57,763 nucleotides of DNA. Source: Candidatus Brocadia sp. Lineage in GTDB: Bacteria; Planctomycetota; Brocadiia; Brocadiales; Brocadiaceae. Position numbers and translations under genes: made by a program. Positions 34,855 through 51,587 of this stretch are shown piece after piece. The stretch spans positions 1 through 57,763 of the forward strand of contig JABWAQ010000008.1 of assembly GCA_013360945.1 (NCBI GenBank), in the 5' to 3' direction. The number at the start of each line of letters is the position of its first letter. Position 1 is the first letter of the stretch. The notes under the pieces were generated by a model. The model saw only the letters and a list, made by a program, of their open reading frames with translations, was not told the DNA's origin and did no database searches.

Positions 34855-35999
34855 ACGACGGGCTTCTCGAAGCGCATCGATTTTTCTTCCATGCAGAGAT
34901 AAATCGGGACACCTTTACAATGCCTGCGGATCCATGACGTCATATTTTTGTAGAGGGATCGTCTTACTTCCTGTGGATACCGAAGCTTGCCATCATGACC
35001 GGTAAAAAATTCTTCATCGAGTATGGTATTACCCGGGAAACGGTTTTCCATGATTTTCTTCAGGCGCGGTGTCATACGGAGGATGCCCAGGCTTATCCAT
35101 GCAACATCACCACCTCCTACGGCATGAAAAGTCATATCGATCAAAGCCTCATAATCGGATTCACATCCTGGGTAATAAATGATGGGGTCATAGTGAAAGG
35201 CGACCTGGTAGCCATGGGCAACGCATTTTTGCGCTGCTGCGAGCCTCTTTGCTAACGGGGCGGTAAAGTGCTCCACGATTTTCTGAGGATTCAATGACCA
35301 GGAGACAATGATATTTCTTGCCCCTGGAACAGAAGTCAAAAGATCAACATTGTCACTCTAGGTTTTCAACTCGTACAGGGTTTTCGGATAGTGGCGAAAA
35401 AACTCGACGATCCGCGGTGAGTATCCTGTGATATGGTCAAACGCGAGGGAATCGGTTAACTCACATGAACCACAGCGGATGTTTCGTCCCAGATTCCTGA
35501 ATGCTGAAAAAAACTCCTCAATATTGGCAGGCAGAATAATACCCGGTGAGTTAATGTAATCCTGCAGGACGCAATAGGTGCATTCATACGGGCACCCGCT
35601 GCCGAGATTGACGACATAATAACCGCAGTGGGCGGATTTACTTGAACAGGGGCATTTTTTAAAAAAATCATAATCCTCGCGCACCAGGTAAAAATTCTCC
35701 ATTCTCCTGTTATAATCGGTGATGCCGAACCGTCTCTTCCCAACGTGTTGTTTGTAGGATTTTATTATTTCAACGTTACTCTCCGCGAAAGATGGATAGC
35801 GTCGCTTCAACAGATAATCTTTGATTGTGGAAAATCTGCTTGGTGGTTTGGGTAAGCTCTCAGCTATCTTTGTATAATCGATACGTTCCCGCTTGACAAT
35901 TTCAAACAGGAGTCGGGAGATCTCTTGCTGTTTGTTTATGCCAAAATATGGGTAATATTTACTAACAAATGTCTTGATTTGTTCCGTATTGACGATCAT
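34803..35999 (-). pseudogene. spore-photolyase-like radical SAM gene with in-frame amber codon
   Basis: One reading frame of about 398 codons encodes an SplB-family protein: helical N-terminus, radical SAM motif CPYECTYC (Cys136, Cys140, Cys143), then NIRCGSCELTDSLAFDHITGYSP, and after the break IIVSWSLNPQKIVEHF and FHYDPIIYYPGCESDYEALID. At codon 214 (35360-35358) TAG replaces what is normally Lys in ELKTKSDNVD; the frame continues without other disruption. Family members repair UV dimers (SP lyase) or are of unknown function. Options: recent nonsense mutation, sequencing error, or suppression. Two pieces would be non-functional alone. Confidence 0.8.
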
Positions 36000-36081
36000 T
36001 GCCTTGCATGTAATTCCTAAGCTAAACCATCCGCTAAGCGGGTGTGAACAGCAAAAGCTAAGCTGTAGTATTTACAAAAAA

Positions 36082-36142
36082 ATCTCCTTCGGTATATTGC
36101 GGTTGGGAATACTTTAAGATTAGCAATATAGCAGAAGGAGAT
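36082..36142. repeat. left-end hairpin of IS200-like element
   Basis: ATCTCCTTCGGTATATTGC (36082-36100) pairs with 36123-36142, which contains the AGAAGGAG ribosome site of the following transposase. Sequestering that site is the known translation control of IS200 elements. Confidence 0.65.
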
Positions 36143-36147
36143 TAAGG

Positions 36148-36474
36148 ATGAAGAAGAGTCTATCACACACGGTATGGGAGTGCAAGTATCATGTTGTATG
36201 GGTGCCGAAGAAAAGGCATAAGATAGTTTACGGAAAGCTGCGAAAAGAAATGGGTGAAATATTACGTCGTTTAAGTGAGTACAAAGGAGTGGAAGTGATA
36301 GAAGGTAAAGCATGTATAGATCATATTCACATATGTTTGGCAATACCGCCGAAATAATCAGTATCAACGATAGTGGGATATTTAAAAGGTAAAAGTGCGA
36401 TGATAGTATTTGAGAAGTACAGTCATCTAAGGCAGAATTTTCGAGGTCACCAATTTTGGGCAAAAGGTTGGTAA
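36148..36474 (+). pseudogene. IS200/IS605 TnpA remnant
   Basis: HUH single-strand transposase. MKKSLSHTVWECKYHVVWVPKKRHK and DHIHICLAIPPK (the HUH metal-site histidines) are typical. A TAA at 36355-36357 interrupts the frame where Tyr is expected (IPPKYS), and the frame then continues SVSTIVGYLKGKSAMIVFEKY to a second stop at 36472 before the catalytic tyrosine. Two defects make it inactive. Confidence 0.8.
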
Positions 36475-37251
36475 GGCCTTTTATTTTTTCAGCGCAACGT
36501 ACTTCAAAAAAACGATTCTTTCCACTGAATGAAATATGCGTGGATTGATAGTGGCCACTAAATATCACAGAGCGTGAAATTGCGTATCTGCAAAGCCCCT
36601 TGCCCGTCACGGCAACATCACCAGGTCGGCACAGGCTGCAAAGAAGAATCGGTGGGCATTCTGACAACTGATCCATAAGCACCACATAAACCCTGGAAAC
36701 TACAAGACCATCCCTTATAGCACTCCCCGGTCTCAATCAAAAAAAAAAGGGCCCATAACCTCTTTGTTGTATTCGTGTTTATATTCATTCGTGGCCGATT
36801 GCAATGTAGAGAGACGAGCCTCGTCGCTCTAAAATCACAGCATTGAAATTCCTTACACAGACTTAGGTTTTTTATAATGTATAAGTAGGACATTTCCTTG
36901 TATTTGCTATGATAAATTTGTCCTACCATCAAGTTCTTTATTAAAAGGGACTTACTCATTTTCCATCTAAATCACCAGGATAAATTTATCATAGTAGATG
37001 CGTGAATTATGAAAAAATCAAAGGCATCGCCTGATCTTTACCTGCACAAAAAACATCTCCATTTCCTTCATTGATCAGCATTTGAGAACTATTCAACTTT
37101 TTGTGCGATAAATTTTGCCCATGAGGGCACAGCGGTTGCGGAATGCTAGGTTGCCAGTAATTACAGAAAGCGAAATTACCGCTTGTCATTGCGAACGTAA
37201 GGAAGCAATCTCAACTTCAAATAAATTATTGACAAGCAGGAAAAGTATACA
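36475..37251. other. intergenic region with an inverted repeat pair
   Basis: About 780 bases without a convincing gene; long minus-strand frames here have no family resemblance. CTATGATAAATTTGTCCT (36907-36924) and its inverted partner with one mismatch (36977-36994) bound an 88-base segment that may be another small non-autonomous element. Confidence 0.45.
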
Positions 37252-37536
37252 ATGGGAAAGCCATCCATTATGCAGGAGATAGTAGCTTATCTGTCCGAAC
37301 ATCCCGATGCCGAGGACACGCTGGAGGGTGTCGCTGAGTGGTGGTTGTTGAAGCAAAAGGTCAGGCATAAGACACGGGAGGTCAAAAAATCCCTCTCGGA
37401 AATGGTGGCACAAGGCCTCCTGCTTGAGCAGAAAGGGCAGGACAATCATATCTATTATCGAATAAACCGGAGCAAGTATGATGAGATAAAGGGCTATCCA
37501 ACAAAAAACATAACGACAAAGGCAAACCCTGAGTGA
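37252..37536 (+). CDS. small winged-helix-like protein
   Basis: A 94-residue protein predicted by eye to be helical then beta-hairpin, as in winged helices: EIVAYLSEHPDAEDTLEGVAEWWL, a second helix VRHKTREVKKSLSEMVAQGLLLEQ, then the wing DNHIYYRINRSKY. AGGA precedes the ATG by 10 bases. It is separated from the giant-protein gene cluster by a strong terminator but could still regulate it. No specific family recognised. Confidence 0.6.
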   Translation: MGKPSIMQEIVAYLSEHPDAEDTLEGVAEWWLLKQKVRHKTREVKKSLSEMVAQGLLLEQKGQDNHIYYRINRSKYDEIKGYPTKNITTKANPE

Positions 37537-37568
37537 TCAGGGGACGCAAAGTAACAGGGTCTTTTGTA

Positions 37569-37588
37569 GGGGCGTAGTGCCTACGCCC
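37569..37588. repeat. GGGGCGTAG/CTACGCCC hairpin
   Basis: A 8-9 bp stem with a 3-base loop, just upstream of the terminator; a common form of small intergenic palindrome in this window. Confidence 0.4.
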
Positions 37589-37611
37589 TTCACGGATATA
37601 CGTTAGAAGAC

Positions 37612-37667
37612 AGCCTTACTGCCGAAGATGTTTCCAGGAACATTTTTGCAGTAAGGCTTTTTTTATT
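37612..37667 (+). terminator. strong rho-independent terminator
   Basis: A perfect 11-bp stem (37612-37622 with 37648-37658) with an inner small stem is followed by TTTTTTTATT. It insulates the downstream 12-kb cluster, whose promoter must lie in 37668-37838. Confidence 0.8.
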
Positions 37668-37838
37668 GAGGAACACGGTGATTGTTCCTGAGTGAAAATT
37701 ATGGAATTGATGATATTTTTTACAGCCACATTACAATAAAAGAAAATATTGGATGTTCCAGAAACTGTCAATTTTCTTACAATAAGCAGGGTATTGCTTT
37801 CTCAAAAAAGGACATTTTTGGCGTGAAAGGAGGATGTC

Positions 37839-38699
37839 ATGGACGATTATGATGACTATACGGAGGTCTGGTTAGAAGATATAGATGAAGGATTTGATAA
37901 ATCTTATTATGAAACGATTCGGGGGGTCATGGCTCCGGAGTATCGTGACCTTGACCCTGAAGATATTGACGCAATGCTGGAAGATGTATTTGCGGGAATG
38001 TCACCAGAGGAGATTGAGAGTTTTTGGAGTACATTGGACAACATCGGAAAGAGCGTTGGGAGTATTGCCGCGAAGGCCATTCCCGTAGCCGCTCCCATCC
38101 TCGGGACTGCACTTGGTGGCCCTGTTGGAGGCGCTATCGGCGGCGCGGTAGGAAAATTAGCTGGTAAAGCCTTAGGAGGCGCACCAGGGAAACCAATAGG
38201 AGGACAGCCACCGCAAGTTCCCGGAGGGGGTTCTCCGGCAGTTTCGCAACTCATGTCATTTTTGCAAAATCCTGCACTCCTCCAAAGTATACTCGGTCAG
38301 GTATTAGGGAAGGCCGGACGCAGCACCGTGCCGGTTGGCCAGCAGGGTGCATCAGCCCCTTTCGGGTCATTTATGAATGCGCTGTCGACCCTGGCTAATC
38401 AAGCTGCAGCAGAGGCTAATGCGGGAGAAGATTCCCAGGGGACACCCGGCTATCTTTTAGATGAGCAAGGGAATTTCCTGTGCGATCCTGCCGTGCCGGA
38501 AGAACGAGCTCAGGTTTTGATAGAACAACTGCATGAAGCTTACCCTGCAGAAGCGGATGATGATGAAGGAGAGGTTCTTACAGAGTGGTTTTCGGAAGCC
38601 GGTTTATTAGAACATCGCCCCCGCTCACGACGCCATTATAGGAGTGCATTTCGTCGTTACCCCAGATCGAGATACAGAATGCCCAGGGGCAGTTATTAG
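37839..38699 (+). CDS. glycine-zipper protein, first gene of giant-protein cluster
   Basis: Unrecognised 286-residue protein. N-terminal 60 residues are acidic and helical (DLDPEDIDAMLEDVFAGMSPEEIE). Residues about 75-120 are a hydrophobic Gly/Ala-rich stretch (IPVAAPILGTALGGPVGG...), a glycine zipper of the type that inserts in membranes or packs helices. A Gly/Pro linker, a second hydrophobic helix region, an acidic segment and an Arg/Tyr-rich basic tail follow. GAAAGGAGG lies 7 bases before the ATG. No signal peptide. It could anchor the cluster's complex to a membrane; this is inference. Confidence 0.7.
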   Translation: MDDYDDYTEVWLEDIDEGFDKSYYETIRGVMAPEYRDLDPEDIDAMLEDVFAGMSPEEIESFWSTLDNIGKSVGSIAAKAIPVAAPILGTALGGPVGGAIGGAVGKLAGKALGGAPGKPIGGQPPQVPGGGSPAVSQLMSFLQNPALLQSILGQVLGKAGRSTVPVGQQGASAPFGSFMNALSTLANQAAAEANAGEDSQGTPGYLLDEQGNFLCDPAVPEERAQVLIEQLHEAYPAEADDDEGEVLTEWFSEAGLLEHRPRSRRHYRSAFRRYPRSRYRMPRGSY

Positions 38700-38753
38700 T
38701 AGTAGGATGAGTTTCCGTGTAATTACCTATTAATGGATGACAGGAGAAAACAA

Positions 38754-39257
38754 ATGAACGAGCATGGCCATTCTCGTACAAATGACGGTTCTGCGGCAAA
38801 CGCTATGAATGTCGTAGATATGCTGAATCAGATGGGTATTTCTGATCCCCGGCTTCAAATGATCGCTGAATTCATGAAACATCAAAACCCTCCGCCGCAG
38901 GATAAGCACGTACCAGATGAAGAAGAGAAAACAAAGCTCAAGAGGGTCATTGGCAGATACAAGCAGCTAAGGCATGAGAATTTGGTTTTGATGGAAAGGA
39001 ATGATGCCCTTGCTTCCGCCCTCGGTGCGTGTCCGTATTGTTGGGGGGAAGATGCGGTGTGTGAAATGTGTCATGGAAAGGGTGTTCCGGGTGCGTATGT
39101 CCCGAATACAAATGCCTTCGTCGAATATGTGCTTCCGGCGGTTCGCAAACTCCGTTTAGTTAGGGGAAAGGGGCAAAGAATCCCGGAGGATTCAGGTACG
39201 GAGACGAAGGGCAATGCCAAAAGCCAACATACGAACATTAACCAACAGGAGGTGTAA
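38754..39257 (+). CDS. zinc-ribbon protein of the giant-protein cluster
   Basis: About 167 residues from the ATG at 38754 (ACAGGAG 7 bases before; the in-frame ATG at 38733 has no site). A helical first half with a coiled-coil piece (KTKLKRVIGRYKQLRHENLVLMERNDALASALG) leads to CPYCWGEDAVCEMCHGKG, a DnaJ-like zinc motif with two CxxC pairs, and a conserved-looking VPNTNAFVEYVLPAVRKL. Function unknown. It ends 3 bases before the next gene, indicating translational coupling. Probably an assembly or adaptor factor of the cluster. Confidence 0.65.
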   Translation: MNEHGHSRTNDGSAANAMNVVDMLNQMGISDPRLQMIAEFMKHQNPPPQDKHVPDEEEKTKLKRVIGRYKQLRHENLVLMERNDALASALGACPYCWGEDAVCEMCHGKGVPGAYVPNTNAFVEYVLPAVRKLRLVRGKGQRIPEDSGTETKGNAKSQHTNINQQEV

Positions 39258-39259
39258 TT

Positions 39260-39892
39260 ATGCCGTATTTAGAAGAAGATGATTTGGAAGTTTTTGAAGA
39301 TGACGAGGCGCTTTTAGAAGCTGAAGATGACACGGAAAAATGGGAGGAAACATTCGGTGAAGCTCGATATCCAAAGTACAGGAGGGGACGGGCAACCAGG
39401 TTGTCTTCACGCAAAGTAGGTGGTTTGAAGGGAGGAACTATCAGTACGCCGGCAGGGCGGGCAGGGTTTAAATTTGAAAAACCCGTCGCGACGAGGGAGT
39501 CGGTGGATAATCTGGCGAAGGAATTAAGGACGGCTATTAAAAAAGTGGATGAGACCTTAGACAAAAATACCAGCATGCTGGACAAAAAGGTTAATGCGAT
39601 TGATGCAACCCTGAAGAAGGGTCAGCAACAAACGCAACAGATGTCAATGATGTCGATCCTGCCGTTATTGCTTACTAAGCCGCCACAATTAGAATCCATC
39701 ACACCTGCAAAAGACTCGTCATTCACTCCAGAGAAACCGTTTGCAGCCACGGCAACATTCAAGAAGGAAGATAGTTTCTTCCTTATCTTTGCGCTAATGG
39801 CAATGACAGGTGGTCTGGGAGGCGGCACAGGTGATTCTTCTAATATGATGAATATGATGCTCCCCTTAGTCTTGTTAAGTGGGAATAAGTAA
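39260..39892 (+). CDS. acidic/coiled-coil protein with hydrophobic C-terminus
   Basis: Unrecognised 210-residue protein. The first 30 residues are strongly acidic, then a basic RYPKYRRGRATR patch that resembles the basic tail of the 286-residue protein. Residues about 85-135 form a coiled coil (LAKELRTAIKKVDETLDKN...). The C-terminal 40 residues are hydrophobic and Gly/Met-rich (FFLIFALMAMTGGLGGG). AGGAGG lies 7 bases before the ATG. Acid-basic complementarity with its neighbour suggests the two bind each other. Confidence 0.65.
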   Translation: MPYLEEDDLEVFEDDEALLEAEDDTEKWEETFGEARYPKYRRGRATRLSSRKVGGLKGGTISTPAGRAGFKFEKPVATRESVDNLAKELRTAIKKVDETLDKNTSMLDKKVNAIDATLKKGQQQTQQMSMMSILPLLLTKPPQLESITPAKDSSFTPEKPFAATATFKKEDSFFLIFALMAMTGGLGGGTGDSSNMMNMMLPLVLLSGNK

Positions 39893-39927
39893 GTCTTGTT
39901 AATCTCATTATAGTAAAGGAGGTCGTC

Positions 39928-40416
39928 GTGAATGGAATTTTCAATAATAATTTTTTGATAGGGTTTTTGTTGGCGAAAGATTTGTCGAGAAATGAAGCAT
40001 TAACGGTTGGTCTCGCATCAGGCATGTTTCCTCAGAATAATATGGTAGGCCCGTTGCTGCTAAAACCTCAAATTGATACGAGGATTGATTTGGAGGCAAA
40101 AAACGCAAGTCTGCAAGGCAGTCTGAATAACATTCAGGGTGAACTGATACAAGCGAAAAAGGAGTTAGCAAGCCTCAATCGTCCACTTAAAGTTGAATCC
40201 CGGGAAAGCGGTGGAATTTTAAATTTCACCATTTCCGGTGCAGCAACGACAACTTTGAAATTTAAAGATGAAAATGCAAGAAATGGATATGAGATTAACG
40301 ACGGCGGGAATCTAAACATTAGTAAGGGTTCTGGTCGGGTTGACCTTGTGATAACGACTGATGATGGGTTTAAGAGAGAGTTTACATTTGAAAAAAAAGT
40401 TCCACCAGTATCTTAG
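39928..40416 (+). CDS. small coiled-coil/beta protein of the cluster
   Basis: Unrecognised 162-residue protein with a GTG start, chosen for AAAGGAGG 6 bases before. The N-terminus has a hydrophobic helix (FLIGFLLAKDLSRNEALTVGLASGMF), the middle a coiled coil (EAKNASLQGSLNNIQGELIQAKKELASL), and the C-terminal half looks like a beta-sandwich (FTISGAATTTLKFKD, RVDLVITTDDGFKREFTF). It may be a structural subunit. It is 55 bases before the giant subtilase gene. Confidence 0.6.
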   Translation: MNGIFNNNFLIGFLLAKDLSRNEALTVGLASGMFPQNNMVGPLLLKPQIDTRIDLEAKNASLQGSLNNIQGELIQAKKELASLNRPLKVESRESGGILNFTISGAATTTLKFKDENARNGYEINDGGNLNISKGSGRVDLVITTDDGFKREFTFEKKVPPVS

Positions 40417-40471
40417 CCCAATCAGCCACTGTGAGATCAAAAGGCAAAGATTATATCCAAGGAGTTAAGCA

Positions 40472-43400
40472 GTGGATCCCCGTCTGCAAGAGTTCATTGA
40501 GGAGGGAGAAGGAGCCGAAGAAGTTGAGGTGATTTTAAAGCTACGGCAGGGTGATATTACTCCTCCCCATGTGCGGATCATAACGCAATTTGGGGATATT
40601 GCTACCTGCCGGTTGAGACGTGATCAGATTCATGGGGTATGGGAACATCCGGCAACGGTAAGCGTAAAGGGTCCACGGTATGTGGCGCCTGAACCGGAGT
40701 TTGTTGATGAAAGCGAAGTATCAGATACCGGGACTTTCCCCAGTGACTCCCGGCGTCCCGATTCGCTGGAAGTCACTGGTCAGGGGGCGGTCATTGGAAT
40801 CGTCGACTGGGGCTTCGCCTTTCTTCATCCCAATTTTCGAAAGAGTGACGGCTCTACCCGTCTGCTGGCCCTCTGGGATCAGGGCAATACAACGGCCTTA
40901 GAAAAGCCCGCACCGTATGGCTACGGCGTTGTCTATTCACCGGATGAGATAAATAGAGCCCTCCAAAGCCCGCAACCCTACGAAACCCTGGGCTATCATC
41001 CAGGCGATAGTGACCCTTTGGGCTATGGTACCCACGGCACCCATGTTTGCGATATTGCTGCCGGAAACGGACGAGCAGAAGGCAGTCCCGTGGGTATTGC
41101 GCCGGAGGCGAATATTGTCTTTGTCCATCTTGCGGCTCGGGGCACAGGCGGCCTGGCAAATCTGGGGGATAGTGTGAGGATTTTAGAGGCCCTGGATTTT
41201 ATCGCCAGGGTTGCCGGTGAGCGTCCGTGGGTAGTTAACCTCAGCCTTGGCCGGTGTGGTGGGCCTCACACGGGCTTGACCCTTGTGGAGCAGGGCATGG
41301 ATGCCCTGTTACTCCAGGCCCCCGGTCGTGCTATCTGTATGAGCACGGGAAATTATTTTGACGAACTGGTACATGCCGCTGGCCAATTACACCCCGGGCA
41401 AAAACATACAGTCACCTGGTGGACAAATAAGGCGGATGTTACCCCCAACGAACTGGAATGCTGGTACTCAGGGAATGATTCATTCATTGTTGAAGTTCGT
41501 CCGCCCGAAAGCAATGCAGTTTTCCATGTTCCTCTGGGTGAACAACGTTCCATCCAGGTCGGTGGTCAGGAAGTCGGTCATATCTATCACCGTGCGCGTG
41601 ATCCAGGTAAGGGTGACAACCATATCGATATTTTTCTCTATCCAGTGGCTCCAGCTGGTTCATGGCTGGTCACCTTGATTGGGGAAGATATCGTTGATGG
41701 ACGATTCCACTGCTGGGTGGAGCGCGATAATACTTGTCCACAATGTCAATCCCGGTTCGATCCTCAAGATGCTGTGCCTACTTCCACAATAGGCACAATT
41801 TGCAATGGGTTTCGCACCATTGCTGTGGGTGCGTACAATCATCATTCTCCTGGTCTGGAGGTGGCAATTTTTAGCAGTTCAGGACCAACGGCAGACGGCC
41901 GCCAAAAGCCCGATCTCATTGCACCAGGTGTTCGTATCTTAGCAGCCCGTTCCAGTTCCCGGGATCAGCATATTGGGGCGCCTGTGCTCACGAGAAAATC
42001 GGGAACGAGCATGGCGTCTCCCCATGTGACGGGGACTATAGCATGCATGTTTGAAGCTGCTCAACGACCGCTCTGGATCCATGAGGCTCGAAAAATACTG
42101 CTCAGTACCTGCAAAACTATAACGGCGCCGCCAGAAATCGCTGCCCGCGTTGGAAACGGCTGTCTGGACATTAAAAAAGCCGTAGAGGCTGCTCGCATAT
42201 TCGCACAAGAAGAGATACACCCTGTTAGTAAAATGACACCCATCGGGGGAGAAAAAGCAAAGGATGTGGTTATGAATAGGAATGACGAATATTCAAGAGA
42301 AGAAGAATTAGAAGATACGTTTTTCAACGAAGAGGAAGAAGGGGATGATGAAGGGTCTGAGGAGGCTCCGAAAAAGCGCAATTTCATCCTGATTTCCGGT
42401 GGTCCCGGCCTGTTTGATGACCGGGATGTGGAGCATGATAAGTCTTGGGCAAACTACGTCACACCCCCGCTACTGATGACCGATACTGAAGATAAGCGCA
42501 AGAAATTTGCTCAGGATGATGAAGAGGTCTGGTGGTTTGTCTACAAACCTGCCTATGACAGCAGATGGGATGACGATCTAAAACAAAAGCGTAAGTCAAC
42601 AAGGGAAGTGAAAGATAAAGGTTTTGCTTCTTATGTTGATATGGTTGAAGGACGGGCAAAGGAGAGAGGTTGGAACCTTCGATGGTTAGATACGGCTGAT
42701 GATCTGTGGAAAAAGCTAAAGACATTCAGCAAAGACTCTCTATCACGCGTGTGGTACTGGGGTCACGCCCGCGATGACTTATGGCTCTCGCTCGGTCATA
42801 GCTCTGCAAGCGTAGCTGTTGCCCCCGAATCACATGAGATTATTCTTGTCACCTCAATTGATAGCAATAAAAAACTTCAAGACCGATTCCAAAATGGAGA
42901 TACAAAGAGAATCCATCGCTTTGTCGGATGCAATACAAGCGCATTTGCCCAGGCATGGTCTAAGACATTTAAGGTTTGGAGTGAGGGCGTAGAGGAAAAG
43001 GTTGATTTCTCCGCCATCCACAAAACAGGCGGGGAACCAAGTCTTGTGGGAAGCGCCAAAATCAAGTTCTTCTCGCCAAAGGGGATTGAGGCTGACCCTA
43101 CGGAAGCCTGGCAGCCAGAGGTTGCAGCAGCTGAAGATTCATGGACTGAGGCATCGGACGACGAGTCCTTTGAGGATGATACCGTTGAGGTTCTACGGGC
43201 AGAGAAGTTTGTGGCAGAAGAAAATAATGAAGAAACGGACGCCTATGAAATCTGCGAGTCCGAAGACGACGAGGAACAGGACGATGAAGTGTTTCCGGAA
43301 GTCGAGAAGGATTTTGGCGTTGAACTCGTCGGGCTTGCGGATGAATCTATTTCCGCCGGAAAGGCTGTTCTTTCTGGCGGCGCTTTACTGCATGAGACGC

Positions 43401-45826
43401 TATCCAAGTCCGGCATCGCAGAGACCGTAAGCCCTCTTGGCGCGGGAAGTTTTCCTTCTCCGGCGTCGATCTTTGATGCCTTTGCATACGGTGGAATCCC
43501 GGCGTTACAGCGTCATTATGAACAATTTTTCGAGGTAGTGGCCCTCCCTGGCTCGCGGCTTAGCGAACCCCTCCAGAGGGGAGACGTGATCGTCCGCCGG
43601 GCCCTTGGCGAAGGGCGGCTTGCTCACGTGGCTATAGTGGCCACGCCTGAGCTATGGAGCCAGAATCAGTTAATGGAGGGAGGACTATATGGCGAAAGTG
43701 AGCGCCCCGGCTTCTACGTGCAGGTAGTCGAAGGTGGATCCCGACCCCACACCCTGGCTGACTCGTTTGCACGGCGCGTACTCGACTCCAGGGGACGTCT
43801 GTACCCGGACTCGGTGATTCTGCGCGTTGTACGTCGTCCACAGGGCATCCCGATCATCGAGGGTGAAGATACCGGCTACAGCGAAAACCTGCAGGCCTAT
43901 ACAGCCTCTCGTTTCCAGGGAGACGCTATTCTCATCGAAGTCCTCAACAACAGAAGGGAATTAAAAAAGGGGAGCAAAGGCGGAGCCGTTGGCGTTGCAG
44001 TCAGGAAAGTGCAGGAGGCCCTCCTCGACCTCGGATATACCCTCCCTAAATTCGGGGCAGACGGCAATTTTGGACGTGAGACCAAAGCGGCAGTTCAGGC
44101 ATTCCAGAAAGACCAGAAAAAGGTTGTGCCGAGCCTGAAGGTTGACGGGATTGTTGGAGACGAGACCATGACCCGGTTTGATGTCGTATTTGCTTTGCTC
44201 GACAGACCCTGCGGCGCCTCCACCGCCGGCGCAATCGACCCGACTGCGGGCGGTGGTTTCCAACCCGGAAACAGCAATTACACGAGCGGTACGATCTCAG
44301 CCTTCGGTGATACCCTTGAGGTTAGGGGTAACATCTTTTACCCCGCTGCGGTTGCCGGTTCAGGCGTGCCTTTTGCCTTGACTGCAGGAGGCGCATCGCC
44401 CATAGTATTTATCGCTCACGGCAATCACGCCCGCTTCCATGACCCTGCCGAACGAAGACGGGAAAGAGGAAACAACCCGGGAGGCTGGACCCGGATCGGC
44501 AACCACCGGGGCTATGTTTACTTGCAAGAAGCCTTGGCCAGGTTGGGAATTATCTCTGTTTCCGTGGATTGTCATGATCTCAACGGCCCTACCCCGATGA
44601 GTAATATCAATATTGCTCAGCGTGCTATGCTCATCATCGCGGCCATGCGCCACTTCCAGGCGCTAAACACTCCCGGCAGCGGCTCAATTTTCGAGGGGCG
44701 TATTGACTTTTTAAGAGTAGGGCTTCTGGGGCATTCCCGCGGAGCTGAGTCTGTTTTGTTCGTCCCATCAATAACATCATCAGGAGTAGCAAGCTTGCTG
44801 CAGGGCCTGCAGGGTGTCACTTTCCGAGGTGTGATATCCCTCGCACCCACTGATACTGCCACGGTAACCAGCGCGCCGGCGGGCATACCATTCATGGCAA
44901 TCCTGCCAGCAGCTGATGGGGATGTTAGAGATAACGACGGGGCAAAATTTTACGACCAGACCGCCCCTTCTCCGTTCAAAGTTCAATTATACATCCATAG
45001 GGCTAACCACAATTTCTTCAACACCGAATGGGTAAATAGCGAGTGGCAGCGACCATGGCCATCGGTTGGGGGACCGCCTCCGGCACAGCCGGAGCCACCT
45101 TTAATGACAGAGGCTGAACACCGACGCATCTTATCGGTATACGCAACCGCTTTCTTCCGTCACACGCTCCTTGGTACACCATTCATTGAAGTTTTGACAG
45201 GGCGGGAGACTCCGCCGGGCGTCAATAATGCCGACATCCAAATCTCTGCAGAAATCTCAACCGCCACCACCGTTGATGATTACGAAAACAGCAATATCCG
45301 GATAAATACCCTGGGTCAAGCAACCGTTGATGCAGGCACCCTTACCTCAAGAGAAGTTGCCTTTTCCCAGCCCGGTGCGGGACCCGACACAACGTACTTT
45401 GGGAATACCCATGGGATGGTGGCTCAAAGCCCAACTGCTATGGGAACATTCCGGGAACCTTTTATAGGAGAGATTAATCTTGCAGGCCGAGAGGTATGGC
45501 TTCGTGCTGCGGAGGTTTACCATGGGACTCCTATACCGGCGGATGCTACGGGTTTCCAAATAGGACTTGAGGATGCGGCAGGCATTGTGACATTTGTTCC
45601 TTCGGGGGATTTGCCACGTCCGTTCGACCGGGAAACGGCTGACCTGGCTCAATTTGGGGTGAACCTTACCAAGACAATGCTTAAGACCGTCCGCTTCCCT
45701 GCTAACTGTTTTACTCACGCCCGTCCCTCTCTTGATCTCACAAGGATACGTGCGGCAATAATCAGGCTGAACCGGCCCGATGCGCGCGACTTTGCGTTTG
45801 ATCAGTTACAGATAGTTACCGTATAA
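40472..45826 (+). CDS. giant multidomain hydrolase: subtilase, CHAT-like, papain-like, PG-binding, alpha/beta hydrolase
   Basis: 1784 residues, GTG start with AAGGAG 7 bases before, no signal peptide. Order: I9-like prosegment (15-70); S8 subtilase (100-580) with Asp112, His188 (GTHGTHV) and Ser513 (GTSMASP) and a long insert; acidic linker; caspase/CHAT-like region (635-870) with WYWGHARDDL (His764) and FVGCNTS (Cys820); acidic linker; a papain-like/permuted NlpC-P60-type module (950-1122) with RGDVIVRR and AHVAIVA but no Cys, shared with the 1298-residue protein; PG_binding_1 (1165-1237); alpha/beta hydrolase (1270-1560) with GHSRGAE (Ser1422), Asp near 1484 and His1513; beta-sandwich end. 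All active sites of subtilase and lipase-type units look intact. Function unknown; likely a self-processing lytic or signalling machine. Confidence 0.8.
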   Translation: MDPRLQEFIEEGEGAEEVEVILKLRQGDITPPHVRIITQFGDIATCRLRRDQIHGVWEHPATVSVKGPRYVAPEPEFVDESEVSDTGTFPSDSRRPDSLEVTGQGAVIGIVDWGFAFLHPNFRKSDGSTRLLALWDQGNTTALEKPAPYGYGVVYSPDEINRALQSPQPYETLGYHPGDSDPLGYGTHGTHVCDIAAGNGRAEGSPVGIAPEANIVFVHLAARGTGGLANLGDSVRILEALDFIARVAGERPWVVNLSLGRCGGPHTGLTLVEQGMDALLLQAPGRAICMSTGNYFDELVHAAGQLHPGQKHTVTWWTNKADVTPNELECWYSGNDSFIVEVRPPESNAVFHVPLGEQRSIQVGGQEVGHIYHRARDPGKGDNHIDIFLYPVAPAGSWLVTLIGEDIVDGRFHCWVERDNTCPQCQSRFDPQDAVPTSTIGTICNGFRTIAVGAYNHHSPGLEVAIFSSSGPTADGRQKPDLIAPGVRILAARSSSRDQHIGAPVLTRKSGTSMASPHVTGTIACMFEAAQRPLWIHEARKILLSTCKTITAPPEIAARVGNGCLDIKKAVEAARIFAQEEIHPVSKMTPIGGEKAKDVVMNRNDEYSREEELEDTFFNEEEEGDDEGSEEAPKKRNFILISGGPGLFDDRDVEHDKSWANYVTPPLLMTDTEDKRKKFAQDDEEVWWFVYKPAYDSRWDDDLKQKRKSTREVKDKGFASYVDMVEGRAKERGWNLRWLDTADDLWKKLKTFSKDSLSRVWYWGHARDDLWLSLGHSSASVAVAPESHEIILVTSIDSNKKLQDRFQNGDTKRIHRFVGCNTSAFAQAWSKTFKVWSEGVEEKVDFSAIHKTGGEPSLVGSAKIKFFSPKGIEADPTEAWQPEVAAAEDSWTEASDDESFEDDTVEVLRAEKFVAEENNEETDAYEICESEDDEEQDDEVFPEVEKDFGVELVGLADESISAGKAVLSGGALLHETLSKSGIAETVSPLGAGSFPSPASIFDAFAYGGIPALQRHYEQFFEVVALPGSRLSEPLQRGDVIVRRALGEGRLAHVAIVATPELWSQNQLMEGGLYGESERPGFYVQVVEGGSRPHTLADSFARRVLDSRGRLYPDSVILRVVRRPQGIPIIEGEDTGYSENLQAYTASRFQGDAILIEVLNNRRELKKGSKGGAVGVAVRKVQEALLDLGYTLPKFGADGNFGRETKAAVQAFQKDQKKVVPSLKVDGIVGDETMTRFDVVFALLDRPCGASTAGAIDPTAGGGFQPGNSNYTSGTISAFGDTLEVRGNIFYPAAVAGSGVPFALTAGGASPIVFIAHGNHARFHDPAERRRERGNNPGGWTRIGNHRGYVYLQEALARLGIISVSVDCHDLNGPTPMSNINIAQRAMLIIAAMRHFQALNTPGSGSIFEGRIDFLRVGLLGHSRGAESVLFVPSITSSGVASLLQGLQGVTFRGVISLAPTDTATVTSAPAGIPFMAILPAADGDVRDNDGAKFYDQTAPSPFKVQLYIHRANHNFFNTEWVNSEWQRPWPSVGGPPPAQPEPPLMTEAEHRRILSVYATAFFRHTLLGTPFIEVLTGRETPPGVNNADIQISAEISTATTVDDYENSNIRINTLGQATVDAGTLTSREVAFSQPGAGPDTTYFGNTHGMVAQSPTAMGTFREPFIGEINLAGREVWLRAAEVYHGTPIPADATGFQIGLEDAAGIVTFVPSGDLPRPFDRETADLAQFGVNLTKTMLKTVRFPANCFTHARPSLDLTRIRAAIIRLNRPDARDFAFDQLQIVTV

Positions 45827-45846
45827 GTTATAAAGGAGAGCCAAAT

Positions 45847-46239
45847 ATGCGCAAAAATAATGACCCGAGAACCAGCACGGGAAGCCAGAGCCCGTGGCAT
45901 CTACCAGGGGTTCTCAATGTGGTCTCTAAGCACATTCGTTACCGCGAACCTCAGCACCGGCTCATCGGATTGAAGATCGTAGAAGCTACTGAAGCGGTCG
46001 AGATTGTGGTTGATACGGACGATGAATTCCCCGTTGGCGCTCTTTCTCCAGTGCTCTATGTGGGTGAGATATCCATCCCGCACTATAAATGGATTAGTAA
46101 GAATAGGTACCGCTTCATTGCATTCGATTTTCAGAACCTGCGGGACGGGGTGCCGATTTTTCTTGGTTGGCCTGGACGCCCGGAGACCAGGGTTGAGACC
46201 CGATTCCGATATCATCTTGGTGCGCCACCGATTGCTTGA
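45847..46239 (+). CDS. small beta-rich protein between the two giants
   Basis: Unrecognised 130-residue protein with AAAGGAG 8 bases before the ATG. The sequence alternates short strands (IRYREPQHRLIGLKIVEATEAVEIVVDTDDEF, YVGEISIPHYKWI, YRFIAFDF) and lacks cysteines, signal peptide or membrane helix. Its place between two giant hydrolase genes suggests an inhibitor, chaperone or linker for one of them. No fold identified. Confidence 0.6.
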   Translation: MRKNNDPRTSTGSQSPWHLPGVLNVVSKHIRYREPQHRLIGLKIVEATEAVEIVVDTDDEFPVGALSPVLYVGEISIPHYKWISKNRYRFIAFDFQNLRDGVPIFLGWPGRPETRVETRFRYHLGAPPIA

Positions 46240-46304
46240 CGATAGAGAATGCACAATGATCCGGTTGATGATTGAAATCAGACGGACAAGGAGGTTTTAC
46301 ACAA

Positions 46305-49300
46305 ATGAGGAGCAAAGCAGAAGCTGGGAGCGATCTTAGTCGTGAACTTGTCGGGTTAGCAGCGAAAGCAATTGCTGCAGATAAGGTTTCCAGCTCCTCG
46401 AACGCCCTGCTTGGCCAGGTGCTATCCAAAGCAGGGATGACAGAAATACTGAACCCTCTTGGCACAGAAAGTTTTCCTTCACCGGCGGCGATCTTTGATG
46501 CCTTTGCGCCTGGTGGTGTACCGGCGCTGCGTCGGCACTTCGGACAGTTTTTTGAAGTAGTTGCTATGCCAGGCGAAAAATTTAACGGCAATTTTCAGCC
46601 TGGTGATTTATTGGTGCGGCGAGCCTGGGGAGAAGGCGGCATGGCACATGTGGCCTTGTTGGTTACGGGTGAGGCTCTCCAGGCAAAGGAATTGGCTTCC
46701 CTGGGGCTGCGTCCTGAAAGCAGGCGGCCGGGACTTTATGCGGAAGTTATCGACGCCGGGCCTTTCCCCCATCGTCTTGGAGATAAGTTTGCGCGGCGCT
46801 TAGGCAATGAAAATGGGCAGCTTGGTCATGACAGCTTGATTCTCCGGGTTCGACACGATGCCGTAAATTCCCTCCGACCCCTTGCCCCGACCCTGGAAGA
46901 GCAAGGAACCCAGCAGCCCACAGCAGCGGGAGAGTCTGCCGAGAACGCTCCACCAAGCGCTGTGTCCAGTTGGCCCCTGGGAGTCGATTTGTACCAGGGA
47001 AATCGCATTGACGCCGCAGGGTTCAAGAACCTGAAGAACCGGGGGAAGACATTTGCCATCGCGAAGTCGTCTCAGGGGACGATGACAGACGGAGGCTTTC
47101 GAAACTACTACCGCTGGATTCGAGAGAGCGGAATGATTCGAGGTTCCTATCACTTCTTCGCGAACAAATGGGGAGGCGTGCCGCAGCCCTGGCTCCACGG
47201 GTCGATCGCTGATCAAGCGAACGTTGTCGTCTCGCTGGTCAATCGTCTGGGGCCGGGCGACCTGGCTCCGGCACTTGATCTTGAGGACGAGCCGAGGCTG
47301 CCGACTGGCGGGGCAGTGCCGGCTGGCTCACCACCAGGGACCGGGCGTTACCCGCTCGATCAGGGGATAACGAACGCGCAGCAGGGATACCACTACAGAC
47401 GCACTGTTTATGCGAACTGGCAGGTCGGACGCGACGAACTCCTGGCCGACATTCAGGATTTTCTCGACCGCATAGAGACCGCTCTCGGCCGTACACCGCT
47501 GATCTACACCTCCCACATGTGGAGGGATACTGACATGATGAACAATCCACAGGTGCTGTCGCAATATCCGCTGTGGACCGTCTATCATGGCGAACCTGAC
47601 TTGAGGGGCATCAGGGTGGGCGCTTGGGGCAGGAACTGGGCTTTCATTCAATATGCAGAACAAGGGGAAAGGTACTGGGGATTGAATCCATACACGGAAC
47701 CCAATATCGATGTCGCAGGGATCGACTTCGACGCGTACAACGGTACGATCTACGGGTTGCGTGGTCTCGCCGACCTGGGTCACACCGCCCCGCACCTGGT
47801 AGGCAACCAGGAATGCATCGCATACACTGAGGCCGATGGCAGAGTACATCTTCTGGAACTAGTCGCCGGGACCTGGCGTGACCAAGACCTGTCCACCATT
47901 ATCCCCTCTGCGCCCATCGCTGTAGGCGATCCGGCGGCGATCGGTATTGGCAGCGAACAAATCATCCTCTACCGGACGAGCAAGGGAAACATTCATGCCC
48001 TCGCCCGTTCGCTAACGAACGTCAACGCCCTGTGGTCAGAGCTCGCAACCGGGCCCGCGGCAATTGATGACCCCTTTGTAACGCTTGTCCAGAACAACGT
48101 TCACGTGGTGTATTGGAACGAATTCAACCGTCATATTCATCTTTCCAGACAAGGAGGTGGCACCTGGGATGCCACGCATACCGCAGATTTGGCCGCGATT
48201 CCCTCCACACCGTATGCCTCTGGCAGCGCGGTTGCGTATCTGCACCAGAACGTGCTTCACTTCGTCTCCCGCGCAGGCGGTGATGGCCACCTGATTGACT
48301 CTTACCGTGCTGGAGCTGGCGGCTCGTCAGACAATCTGACGGCCACGGCGCGCGACAATGCCGGGCATCCGCCGCCCGCTGCAACTTATCGGCCAGCCAC
48401 CTACACGCCTACGGGCAGGGTGGCGCGGATAGTATTCCGTGCCGTGAGGGGAGACATCTGGCAGATCGAGCGCGATACGCTCAATGCGACGAACTTGAGG
48501 GCGACAGCCGTGGATGCCTCAAACGCGGGAGGAGTTGCTCCAGCCGCAGTCGGAAGCCCAACCGCCATCTTCGTAGGCGTACCTCACATCTTCTATCGCA
48601 CGGTCACCGGGAGGATTATCGACCTCTTTGGTGACATAAACAACCTACGCTGGCGGGAAGTATGCATCGACGCCGCAGCCGATCCGACCGCCTTTGTCGA
48701 CAGGCTCGGGCATGCCGCTGTCAGTTTCCGCGCCATCGACGGCACTATCCGGGTTGCCCGATTCGTGAACGGCACATGGATGTGTGAGAATGCAACCCGG
48801 CCGCAGAGTGGGGGATCCGGTGAAAGTGCTCAGGGGGGACCGGAAGCAGCAGTAACTCAACGGACGTGGGAGGACGCACCACTTACACCGGTACTCCACC
48901 TCGAAAAGCTCAAAATCTCCGGCCTCCCGGAGATTATTTTAATGCCTGGAAGTGGCAGGCGTTACGAGGGTTTCTTTGCGACCCCGATACACCTCCGGAG
49001 AGATCAAACAAGCTACGCGCAATCAAGCCAAAAGGAAATTGAAATTACCGGCCGGATTCAGATGGAAGAGGCGGGCACACGGCGAAACTATGACCGTAAG
49101 AAAGATGGTACGGATTGGCCCCTGGGGGGGAGTGAGGGATCTGCGCCGGTGAAAGCGGTGAGCGCCGACGGGCCGTCGAGCAGTACCGCCTTCACTTCGA
49201 AGGTCAGGCCGGATGGAACGTTTACCTTCAGCACGCGTATTGGCGTCGACGGGTACACGCGCAGCCTTACCATCTACCCGAAAGTTGAGCTCAAAGGCGG

Positions 49301-50201
49301 CAAGACCGTCTCAGCTACCATTGTTCTGGAGTTGCTTGATCTGGATGGTTTCCTTGCGCTGGTCGATCCAAAAGAGAAGGTTCGCCCGGCATCCCAAACC
49401 CACCTGGAATTTTTGGCCTCGGTTCGCAAGATTTATCAGGGCGGACCCAATGATCCACTTAGCGGCGCTTTTGACTGGGTCTTGTACAGGAATCGTAAGG
49501 TAAAACCACTGGTTGCCCCTGGCACGGCGGAAGATCAGCGGTTTCAACTTTATAAGAATTGGGTCTTTGCCGACAGGGAGTGGGTGGATATCGGGCACGT
49601 TCTCACGGGAATCGAAGGATCGCCGAAACAGGAACCATCCAAGGATCAGAGCGTTCCACTGCCTCGACGGCCTGAGCTACTTGTGACTTGGGCAGGCGAC
49701 CTTGGCAGTGCGCTTCAGGCGTATATTAAGGATTTTTGGAACGCCATTGACACAGGCGCTCCACTGGATCTCAATGAATACCTTAGGAAACGCGCCAGTC
49801 AATTTGATTTAACCGGAGACATCGATGGCATTAATATCGGGAGCGTTTACGATGCCTCACGTTCTCTTGCCGGGAATCTGCGCGCTTATTATGGCCAAAA
49901 AAGCCGTCGCCGCTATCACGAGTTCATTGCCAACTCGAAGGACGAAAACGGCAAGGCGGAACTACCGCTAGTGGCCGGCAAAAAGCCCCCGCAGCTTTCG
50001 AAGCAGGCACGGCAGGCGATTGCCGTAAATACCCGGGAGTTTCTTGTTCCTCTCTGGATATACGGCAAACTTTATGGCGGAGCGGATCCCGCCAAACGCA
50101 AACTGATCGACGAAATCATGAAGGTCGATTCTCCGGAGATGGATATGGTCGTCGAATATTTTGTACGCTTTCTTGAGGATGGACTGGCGAGAGAACCATG
50201 A
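46305..50201 (+). CDS. giant protein: papain-like module, GH25 muramidase, beta-propeller
   Basis: 1298 residues from the ATG at 46305 (ACAAGGAGG 10 bases before; open frame begins at 46272). Residues 10-185 repeat the papain-like module of the upstream giant (QPGDLLVRRAWGEGGMAHVALLV; H115, H156). A linker leads to a GH25 lysozyme (225-485): GVDLYQG with Asp228, GSYHFF, ALDLEDE with Asp325/Glu327, and AFIQYAEQGERYWGL...IDVAGIDFDAY; an insert of about 35 residues splits it. Residues 490-850 look like a PLL/fucose-lectin-type beta-propeller. The C-terminal 400 residues include DREWVDIGHVLTGIEG and TWAGDLGSALQAYI, unrecognised. No signal peptide. G+C is much higher here than in the left part. 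Probable cell-wall-cleaving effector. Confidence 0.8.
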   Translation: MRSKAEAGSDLSRELVGLAAKAIAADKVSSSSNALLGQVLSKAGMTEILNPLGTESFPSPAAIFDAFAPGGVPALRRHFGQFFEVVAMPGEKFNGNFQPGDLLVRRAWGEGGMAHVALLVTGEALQAKELASLGLRPESRRPGLYAEVIDAGPFPHRLGDKFARRLGNENGQLGHDSLILRVRHDAVNSLRPLAPTLEEQGTQQPTAAGESAENAPPSAVSSWPLGVDLYQGNRIDAAGFKNLKNRGKTFAIAKSSQGTMTDGGFRNYYRWIRESGMIRGSYHFFANKWGGVPQPWLHGSIADQANVVVSLVNRLGPGDLAPALDLEDEPRLPTGGAVPAGSPPGTGRYPLDQGITNAQQGYHYRRTVYANWQVGRDELLADIQDFLDRIETALGRTPLIYTSHMWRDTDMMNNPQVLSQYPLWTVYHGEPDLRGIRVGAWGRNWAFIQYAEQGERYWGLNPYTEPNIDVAGIDFDAYNGTIYGLRGLADLGHTAPHLVGNQECIAYTEADGRVHLLELVAGTWRDQDLSTIIPSAPIAVGDPAAIGIGSEQIILYRTSKGNIHALARSLTNVNALWSELATGPAAIDDPFVTLVQNNVHVVYWNEFNRHIHLSRQGGGTWDATHTADLAAIPSTPYASGSAVAYLHQNVLHFVSRAGGDGHLIDSYRAGAGGSSDNLTATARDNAGHPPPAATYRPATYTPTGRVARIVFRAVRGDIWQIERDTLNATNLRATAVDASNAGGVAPAAVGSPTAIFVGVPHIFYRTVTGRIIDLFGDINNLRWREVCIDAAADPTAFVDRLGHAAVSFRAIDGTIRVARFVNGTWMCENATRPQSGGSGESAQGGPEAAVTQRTWEDAPLTPVLHLEKLKISGLPEIILMPGSGRRYEGFFATPIHLRRDQTSYAQSSQKEIEITGRIQMEEAGTRRNYDRKKDGTDWPLGGSEGSAPVKAVSADGPSSSTAFTSKVRPDGTFTFSTRIGVDGYTRSLTIYPKVELKGGKTVSATIVLELLDLDGFLALVDPKEKVRPASQTHLEFLASVRKIYQGGPNDPLSGAFDWVLYRNRKVKPLVAPGTAEDQRFQLYKNWVFADREWVDIGHVLTGIEGSPKQEPSKDQSVPLPRRPELLVTWAGDLGSALQAYIKDFWNAIDTGAPLDLNEYLRKRASQFDLTGDIDGINIGSVYDASRSLAGNLRAYYGQKSRRRYHEFIANSKDENGKAELPLVAGKKPPQLSKQARQAIAVNTREFLVPLWIYGKLYGGADPAKRKLIDEIMKVDSPEMDMVVEYFVRFLEDGLAREP

Positions 50202-50854
50202 TGCCTCACAACAAAGGAGCCGGAGTGAATTTCTTCATAAAACGGCAGTGCTAGTATTGTTTAGCATTTCGAAATGATCAGAGGTTACACGATGCGACGT
50301 GCAGAAGTTGAAAACAGGGTAAAAGCTAAAATACATTATTTTTTCCTCATGTCAAGCAGAAAATACAAACGATTCCGATTGAGGCAAGACGTCATACCAG
50401 CAAGACAATTGAAACCACAGATTTCGCAGATTACACAGATAAAGATTTTTGGTAATAGTTCACCGCAGAGGGCGCGGAGAAGGAGGAAAAATAATGGAAA
50501 GGAAGAATTGTTGTGTTCTGTTGATGTTCTATCTCTATCGCATCCTCAGCGATCTTTGCGTTCTTTGCGGTGGGTTGAAATATAACTATTTTTCTGACAA
50601 ATCAAAATCTTTCAGAACGACCAAAAGAAATCCCGGGGGCAAAAGGTGCTGCCTATAACACGAAAACCTCTGAGGTTTGCAATCTTCCTGCTCAATCTAT
50701 CATCCATTATGACCATATTAGCCTTCAATGTTATTCTGATAATGAAACATGCGGTGTTTTTTCCCCTGTTATAAACTAAAAATACCATGAGAAGGCACTT
50801 TACCAGGTTGTACTATCTACATACCTTTTTATCAAAATAAGGAGATAAGAATAT
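50202..50854. other. intergenic region with dispersed repeats
   Basis: Short ORFs here are driven by repeat DNA: CCACAGATTTCGCAGATTAC and CACCGCAGAGGGCGCGGAGA (near 50461) face an inverted TCTTTGCGTTCTTTGCGGTG (50554-50573), a common palindromic repeat type. I see no gene. A stretch near 50660-50760 has no feature. Confidence 0.5.
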
Positions 50855-51034
50855 ATGATTGGTAACGTCATGTCAAGGATTTCAACTGATAGCGTAGAAG
50901 CGGTAAAAATGGCAATGGATTCCATGAAGATGCAGGGTGAAACAGTACTGAAACTTATTGACGAGCAGAAACAGGTAACGAAAGGTGTTCGTAATCCTGA
51001 AGGAATAGGTAAAACAGTAGACGTTTATGTGTAA
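50855..51034 (+). CDS. YjfB-like putative motility protein
   Basis: A 59-residue protein: one long amphipathic helix region (STDSVEAVKMAMDSMKMQGETVLKLIDEQ) ending GIGKTVDVYV, the tail typical of YjfB_motility (PF14070) proteins. GGAG lies 11 bases before the ATG. Members occur near flagellar or chemotaxis genes elsewhere, and their role is unproven; none are near here. It may instead be an accessory of the giant-protein cluster upstream, or an isolated gene. Confidence 0.7.
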   Translation: MIGNVMSRISTDSVEAVKMAMDSMKMQGETVLKLIDEQKQVTKGVRNPEGIGKTVDVYV

Positions 51035-51367
51035 TATGGGCTTAACTTCAAAACAATATCAGGAGCAAATTGAGATGCATGTGTCTCCAGAACTTACCCT
51101 TTAACATCGAAATGGGTGTCTTTCCCAGGAACAGTTCGCCCTTTCCTTCCCACCATGGGCGGACAATATCTATTGTCCAGGTGTTTCTTCTTCCTCCTCG
51201 ATAGGTGAATTTAAATGGGGGAAACTGCCACCTTCTCAAAGTCTTGGTACAAATCGACCCTCATATCCTTCCTGCAATTTCCTGAAAAAAGACACTATTC
51301 ATTTGGTCAGAAATGCCGGGTAATGTCCGTTGAAGGATAAACTTGACAAAAATAGATGTGAACCGTA
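51035..51367. other. intergenic region, nothing recognised
   Basis: A 63-codon minus-strand frame (51048-51239) has no ribosome site or family resemblance. No RNA or repeat seen. Confidence 0.4.
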
Positions 51368-51421
51368 TAATCCCAAGATGCCTGACATTGTGGGATTAGA
51401 CTGTGGTATTGTTATACCACA
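51368..51421. promoter_or_regulatory. adjacent palindromes upstream of oxidoreductase
   Basis: TAATCCCA (51368-51375) pairs with TGGGATTA (51391-51398), immediately followed by TGTGGTAT-TGTT-ATACCACA (51402-51421). No T-tract. The pair could be operator sites or a small repeat. Confidence 0.4.
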
Positions 51422-51587
51422 TGAGATGCTTTCTTGAAAAATTCACAAAGAAGGATGACATACGTTACATCAAGCTTCTTCAAGGTATTCCCTTGCCCTT
51501 TGTAAAATATTGATTATTGATTGTCTCAACGATTAAAGGGCCACTTCATCAAATCCCGCAAATAGCCTAAATTTTAAGAAATGAATT

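Follow-up and report, generated by a model that had tools for sequence, protein, structure and literature searches.

A putative protease-gated cassette with exchangeable wall- and membrane-directed effectors in Candidatus Brocadia and other bacteria

What task could unite a row of small proteins without family names and two very large putative hydrolases? The question is raised by a stretch of 57,763 nucleotides from Candidatus Brocadia sp. (contig JABWAQ010000008.1 of assembly GCA_013360945.1; hereafter the window), in which seven open reading frames (ORFs), all on the plus strand and called P1 to P7 here, occupy positions 37839-50201 and encode products of 286, 174, 210, 162, 1784, 130 and 1309 amino acids. 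An earlier note on this DNA had described them as a unit of small adaptors and two giant hydrolases with no described counterpart. We found that the locus combines a conserved gene order, a subtilase with its catalytic triad, a module shared between effectors, swappable wall- or membrane-directed domains, a place within an insertion, and a riboswitch. We tentatively read it as a horizontally moving, protease-gated cassette that deploys polymorphic wall- and membrane-lytic effectors, likeliest for regulated self-lysis, and we give this reading somewhat less than an even chance.

A conserved core and its variable payloads

The order P1-P2-P3-(P4)-P5 on one strand was found in the window and in ten other loci, eleven in all, the ten belonging to five named phyla apart from the window's own lineage. 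We therefore reject the idea that the cluster is unique to the window genome. Lack of co-occurrence elsewhere had been named beforehand as refuting the earlier proposal, which survived this test. A tblastn search with P5 returned 93 plasmid records, and the surroundings of nine were inspected: three hold the cassette (Cupriavidus oxalaticus, locus L004; Gemmatirosa kalamazoonensis, L005; Streptomyces canus, L052), while six hold a related S8 (subtilase) domain around which P1-P4 were not detected by profile. Three of the ten cassettes are plasmid-borne, but those three were sought in a plasmid collection. On Rhizobiaceae plasmids the related S8 genes lie near PLD (L007, L055), MBL (L056) and caspase-family (L055, L056) genes; these loci, where the profiles likewise found no P1-P4, are possibly a sister system. 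A profile of P2, which served as the marker in genome searches, identified four loci on genome contigs; Leptolyngbyaceae L009, Marivivens niveibacter L010 and Hymenobacter L011 carry the cassette, and Frigidibacter L012 carries P1 and P2 only.

Genome samples taken around these loci were then scored with the P2 profile. Hits came from 1/392 genomes in the window's phylum (the window's own only), 2/339 in the phylum of the L009 genome, with a new full cassette (L021), 2/200 in the family of the L011 genome, also with a new one (L022), and 15/341 in the order of the L010 genome, with two more (L047, L049), as well as from 1/316 in the phylum of the L011 genome and 1/298 in the class of the L010 genome; the counts include the centre genome, and the 15/341 also counts that of L012. 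P3 occurred in one of 59 genomes, namely the window's own, the other 58 being its relatives. In no sample do full cassettes exceed 1% of the genomes, and these prevalence figures are lower bounds because the searches scored a shortlist per genome (mostly up to ~17 candidates) and the contig scan covered only peptides found in three seeds. The P1-P3 profiles were seeded with L004, L005 and L009-L011 (P2 also with L012), L021 and L022 being seeds for the S8 profile. Since L021, L022, L047, L049 and L052 lie outside the P1-P3 seeds, they are independent tests, and in these five the profiles matched at E 2.9e-15 to 1.3e-71 (P1), 1.3e-15 to 1.4e-37 (P2) and 2.9e-5 to 1.3e-60 (P3). The S. canus P2 was missed by tblastn at E 0.01 and found by the profile; its gene (L052, 6417-6977) is absent from the listed annotation of that plasmid.

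The centre of the conserved core is P5 (40472-45826), which begins with a prodomain-like N-terminus and a Csp-like S8 subtilase (residues 1-575). Its catalytic triad D112, H188 and S513 is kept in all eleven P5s, and this N-terminal domain of ~575 residues is 43-54% identical to the window protein in five loci and 50-51% in two more. The closest solved structures to residues 97-528 are those of Csp germination proteases (CspB 4i0w, E 5.5e-25; 9pr8, E 8.4e-29). The NCBIfam CspBA model matched at E 9.8e-33, yet with 112.9 bits against a curated cut-off of 1250, and we therefore call P5 Csp-like and not a CspBA. The sequence alignment with Csp runs through the stretch where the Csp jelly-roll insertion sits, and similarity to type VII mycosin stayed below threshold (37.6 of 278.75 bits). 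According to passages of PMC3567191, CspB has a jelly-roll insertion and a prodomain that stays bound, and cleavage of SleC, a cortex hydrolase, requires this protease. By analogy, the prodomain of P5 may hold the protease as a zymogen.

P5 and P7 (46272-50201) share a segment, termed module X here, at residues 956-1121 and 30-195, respectively; it is present in eight of the eleven P5s and in three effectors without an S8 domain. A CHAP/NlpC-like fold is tentatively predicted for module X, and 11 aligned modules displayed variable histidines and no conserved cysteine. The papain-like domain of the earlier note stands as a tentatively predicted fold, and its role as an active peptidase was dropped for want of that cysteine. 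Module X is followed by PG_binding_1 (1175-1234) in P5 and by GH25 (241-466) in P7, whose C-terminal half has no assigned domain. Peptidase_S8 and PG_binding_1 in P5 and Glyco_hydro_25 in P7 are the only Pfam families above cut-off in P1-P7, which bears out the subtilase, peptidoglycan-binding and GH25 assignments made earlier; the NCBIfam scan of the seven proteins gave no match at curated cut-off.

Across the loci, the payloads in the remainder of P5 and in the next gene include GH25, M23, phage lysozyme, VanY, PLD, patatin and an LCAT-like hydrolase. Wall- or membrane-directed domains occur in the variable parts of nine of the eleven cassettes, with an enzyme among them in seven, in agreement with the lytic effectors proposed before. 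An effector made of module X, PG_binding and PLD is fused to S8 in Leptolyngbyaceae and is encoded by a separate gene in genome G1294 (37.6% over 841 columns). Beside the Cupriavidus cassette, on the opposite strand (L004, 5685-8653), a partial P1 copy accompanies a module X-PG_binding effector whose identity to the module region of P5 is 71%, forming a second, reduced unit. At the C-terminus of the window P5, the alpha/beta-hydrolase-like part showed, among the matches listed, 27-30% tblastn similarity to Streptomyces and Streptantibioticus plasmid genes, some of them annotated as alpha/beta hydrolase, and had no Pfam match; the hydrolase assignment is kept as a weak likeness. The CHAT-like caspase read earlier into P5 590-940 was dropped as unproven, since this region has no family match in Pfam and no useful one in the PDB (WD-repeat at E 0.057 or worse). 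A pore-forming C-terminus read from the sequence of the S. canus P5 is not claimed either, having no PDB or Pfam support.

For P1-P4, neither Pfam nor NCBIfam gave a match above cut-off, and PADLOC gave none. P1 (37839-38699), which was found in the ten other loci, combines a conserved N-terminal segment and an Ala/Gly-rich, glycine-zipper-like stretch. Its below-threshold matches were two tape-measure PHROGs (E 1.1e-5 and 0.038) and the Pfam Harpin family (E 0.043); the PHROG matches are weak and arise through the Ala/Gly-rich sequence. P2 (38733-39257) consists of a coiled coil and a zinc-ribbon-like motif, ALGACxxCxGxxxxCxxCxGxG, which with its four cysteines is invariant in 12/12 aligned sequences. 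In our own reading this motif resembles one half of the DnaJ zinc finger; no library entry matched it. Both features, the glycine zipper and the zinc ribbon, had been noticed before and were confirmed. P3 (39260-39892) has an acidic N-terminus, a coiled coil and two short hydrophobic C-terminal blocks, which by eye are present in 10/11 loci; its below-threshold match was TraP in NCBIfam (16.5 of 135 bits). P4 (39928-40416) is weakly conserved, with a hydrophobic N-terminal segment. The profile places it in the window and in four loci, all four profile seeds, and in four further loci its presence is judged from gene position and from an N-terminal motif recognised by eye. It was not found in the two Hymenobacteraceae loci; strict conservation of P4 is rejected because the profile matches only its four non-window seeds and two loci are without it.

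The genes are tightly packed, with gaps of 33, 2, 35, 55, 20 and 32 bases from P1 to P7; the last becomes 65 bases, and P7 1298 amino acids long, if P7 starts at ATG 46305 instead of TTG 46272. Strong Shine-Dalgarno sites precede P1, P3, P4, P5 and P6, but neither P2 nor the TTG of P7. The earlier account of the order, sizes, 2- to 65-base gaps and strong ribosome-binding sites on most genes agrees with the ORF list. Its grouping of small proteins with two giants stood in part: P1-P4 travel with the subtilase giant, whereas P6 (45847-46239; 130 amino acids) and P7 are the payload of the window locus, outside the conserved core P1-P5.

An insertion under a riboswitch leader

The flanking genes of the cluster adjoin in two same-genus genomes, indicating that the cluster lies within an insertion of about 14.8 kb (36006-50832). 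In L063 (genome G005), 208 bases separate the counterparts of window positions 36001 and 50833, and in L065 (G008), 629 bases lie between those of positions 36005 and 51579. The empty site was seen in two of three relatives fetched upstream of the oxidoreductase, the upstream gene of the third (L064, G002) being outside the 15 kb. Both flanks match same-genus genomes, so that a contaminating contig is rejected despite an assembly contamination of 5.29%. The GC fraction is 0.528 in the cluster and 0.426 in the remainder of the window. Inside the insertion, a short ORF (36148-36357) resembles, in our own reading, part of an IS200-type transposase. Outside it, a radical-SAM, spore-photolyase-like gene (34806-35999; also our reading) is split into two ORFs, and L063 and L065 match both pieces at neighbouring positions.

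The S8 tree departs from taxonomy: it scatters the three cassettes of Alphaproteobacteria over three separate positions and pairs Leptolyngbyaceae with Cupriavidus (support 0.974), not with the other cyanobacterium. Support is weak at several of its deep nodes, as low as 0.40. A phage or prophage origin was rejected, since pattern scans of viral contigs turned up nothing related to P2 or module X, and P7 had no match among phage records. The PHROG families matched by P5 and P7 were those of protease and endolysin domains, with a few of unknown function. Phage records yielded only distant S8 relatives of P5 (25-32% identity), in six faecal phage records (MT838392, MT839048, MT835514, MT835487, MT837365 and MT836232).

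Upstream of P1, Rfam identified a c-di-GMP-I-GGC riboswitch aptamer (RF03167; 37512-37627, plus strand) with 60.7 bits against a gathering threshold of 59 (E 1.8e-12). It is followed by an intrinsic terminator (37613-37664, plus strand) with arms 37613-37622 and 37648-37657, then seven T, and a ViennaRNA hairpin of -26.9 kcal/mol. This terminator, missed by the automatic scan and found in the sequence and ViennaRNA folds, is the one that had been noted on the left of the cluster, and it is part of the riboswitch leader: its 5' arm sits within the 3' strand of the aptamer. In the Geobacter pilM riboswitch, which responds to cyclic GMP-AMP (cGAMP), the aptamer and the terminator exclude each other, and the ligand turns the operon on, as described in parts of PMC9262584. 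Because the window leader has a matching layout, we predict that it acts as an ON switch. Its ligand would be cyclic di-GMP (c-di-GMP) or cGAMP; in G. sulfurreducens, 12 of 17 GEMM-I riboswitches were shown to bind cGAMP (excerpts of PMC8835794).

Copies of RF03167 were also found in L063, L064 and L065, three of five stretches from three genus relatives, with a c-di-GMP-I copy in a fourth. Given these copies, it looks as if the cassette was brought under a type of control element that is widespread in the genus. Near three other cassettes (L010, L047, L052) there is a BTAD-type regulator. A small winged-helix-like gene (37252-37536; own reading) overlaps the aptamer with its end, and weak promoter-like sites occur downstream of the terminator, ahead of P1, so transcription may not hang on the switch alone. 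Over 36500-51600, promoter-like sites numbered 21 against 13.6 (sd 3.5) in shuffles and terminator-like sites 15 against 16.1; neither count is used as evidence.

Regulated lysis and its rivals

We infer the gating, the platform, the lytic release and the target of the cassette as follows. P1-P4 would act together as small accessory proteins, building a hydrophobic scaffold or a membrane-associated platform. P5, kept as a zymogen by its prodomain, would usually carry wall- or membrane-directed domains in cis, and effectors such as P7, which bear module X instead of the protease, might be recruited in trans through the module that they are observed to share. Binding of a cyclic dinucleotide to the leader aptamer would keep the terminator that overlaps it from forming and thereby turn on the operon. 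A second trigger would then activate the subtilase. The subtilase may cleave the effectors, the platform or its own chain, and the freed hydrolases would break peptidoglycan and lipids. The outcome would be a regulated lysis of the producer, for phage exclusion, release of contents or a population benefit. Self-lysis is favoured because no signal peptide was seen by eye on the P5/P7 effectors and wall enzymes, no export or contractile gene was above cut-off among the cassette proteins scanned, including those of other loci, and no recurrent immunity gene after the effectors was noticed by eye in the ORF lists and one annotation table.

Several points weigh against this proposal. The Marivivens P5 is a protease alone, L004 and L010 carry wall-binding domains only, and L005 and L052 are without a confirmed wall or lipid domain. 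Hydrophobicity in P1-P4 is weak, the top 19-residue Kyte-Doolittle mean being 1.87 across 34 sequences, and no clear transmembrane helix was detected in these 34 sequences by that scale, which makes the platform a conjecture. Eleven reduced Rhodobacterales loci (L039-L046, L048, L050, L051) have P2 and lack P1, P3 and P4 by profile; a divergent S8 lies nearby in 8/11, and a PAP2 gene, also tested for, was found in one (L040). By this evidence, P2 and S8 can work without the platform. No riboswitch reached the Rfam threshold in the ten other cassettes. The wall enzymes would still need a route across the membrane. P6, which had no relative among the plasmid records searched, could be an immunity protein, and that would favour antagonism. 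Support for the whole reading comes from sequence analysis.

A bolder version, which we regard as possible though doubtful, is that P1-P4 are a minimal self-assembling device for delivery or self-lysis, unrelated to described secretion systems, that ferries module-X-tagged hydrolases across a membrane, is armed by proteolysis, carries interchangeable warheads and moves between phyla. The closest competitor of regulated self-lysis is antagonism, in which P1-P4 would be an export or particle device delivering S8- or module-X-tagged toxins, with module X as the loading tag and P6 as the immunity protein. One module common to otherwise different effectors, as with trafficking domains, would fit such delivery, as would payloads that look antibacterial, the swap of an effector between cis and trans, and the cyclic-dinucleotide riboswitch in the window. 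However, no export or contractile gene was above cut-off among the scanned cassette proteins, no recurrent immunity gene was noticed in the neighbourhoods read, and P6 had no relative in plasmid records. We consider antagonism rather unlikely and less likely than self-lysis, yet a serious rival.

Anti-phage abortive infection, with the protease sensing infection and releasing lytic effectors, appears improbable. A rare and patchy distribution and a tree that does not follow taxonomy would suit it. So would a SIR2/ThsA-like defence gene that follows the Cupriavidus cassette (L004, 18591-19637), the L047 patatin, which weakly matches defence phospholipase effectors (E 4.7e-5), and the caspase, PLD and MBL genes near the Rhizobiaceae S8 loci. 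However, PADLOC matched only P5, with the generic subtilase PDLC03014 and a weak IetS hit (E 0.00063), and none of P1-P4, P6 and P7, on which outcome a known defence system is rejected; among ten proteins from other loci, either neighbours or effectors, eight had no match to defence models at E 0.001. Just as improbable is ordinary cytoplasmic proteolysis with wall remodelling under cyclic-dinucleotide control, which the window riboswitch and the BTAD regulators beside L010, L047 and L052 would suit, and against which stand the strong effector swapping, the rarity of full cassettes in every genome sample and the wall enzymes without signal peptide.

Four nameless protein families are found together, beside a protease mostly joined to wall- or membrane-directed domains, in no fewer than five named phyla apart from the lineage of the window. 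If self-lysis holds, the cassette would be a new way to restrain lytic enzymes and release them on cue, as well as a source of modular antibacterial enzymes, and the window riboswitch would be a simple handle, through which a rise of the second messenger might fire the cassette.

Comparison with known systems

The library scans named no counterpart, and narrow multi-term queries of open-licence PMC papers found no description of the cassette, which is apparently undescribed so far, as the earlier note had supposed. Mapping to a known secretion or contractile system, the other refuting outcome named in that note, was not seen for P1-P7, which contain no sheath, tube, baseplate, secretin or secretion ATPase family at curated cut-off, the host genomes not being searched for such systems.

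Polymorphic toxin systems combine shared trafficking domains with variable effectors. The cassette is similar in having a constant part, a shared module X and swappable C-terminal enzymes, in cis or in trans; it differs in that no recognised delivery machine or recurrent immunity gene was found. NTP-dependent conflict systems, as presented in sections of PMC7159879, combine peptidases, including S8, with wall-attacking effectors around different cores, and their S8 can flank a NucA nuclease. The pairing of an S8 peptidase with wall-attacking effectors is also seen in the cassette; unlike those systems, P1-P7 were without MoxR, vWA, STAND and EAD in family scans. The leader resembles that of Geobacter pilM in that the terminator hairpin takes up an aptamer strand, and the pilM type controls a different operon (in the parts of PMC9262584 cited above). 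The nearest likeness of the protease is to Csp and SleC, the latter being a peptidoglycan hydrolase set free by a protease (passages of PMC3567191), and the P5 S8 domain is nearest to Csp. Unlike that pair, the P5 protease has no known spore context, though no search was aimed at sporulation genes or SleC; in most cassettes it is joined to wall- or membrane-directed domains, it occurs in several phyla and it is accompanied by P1-P4.

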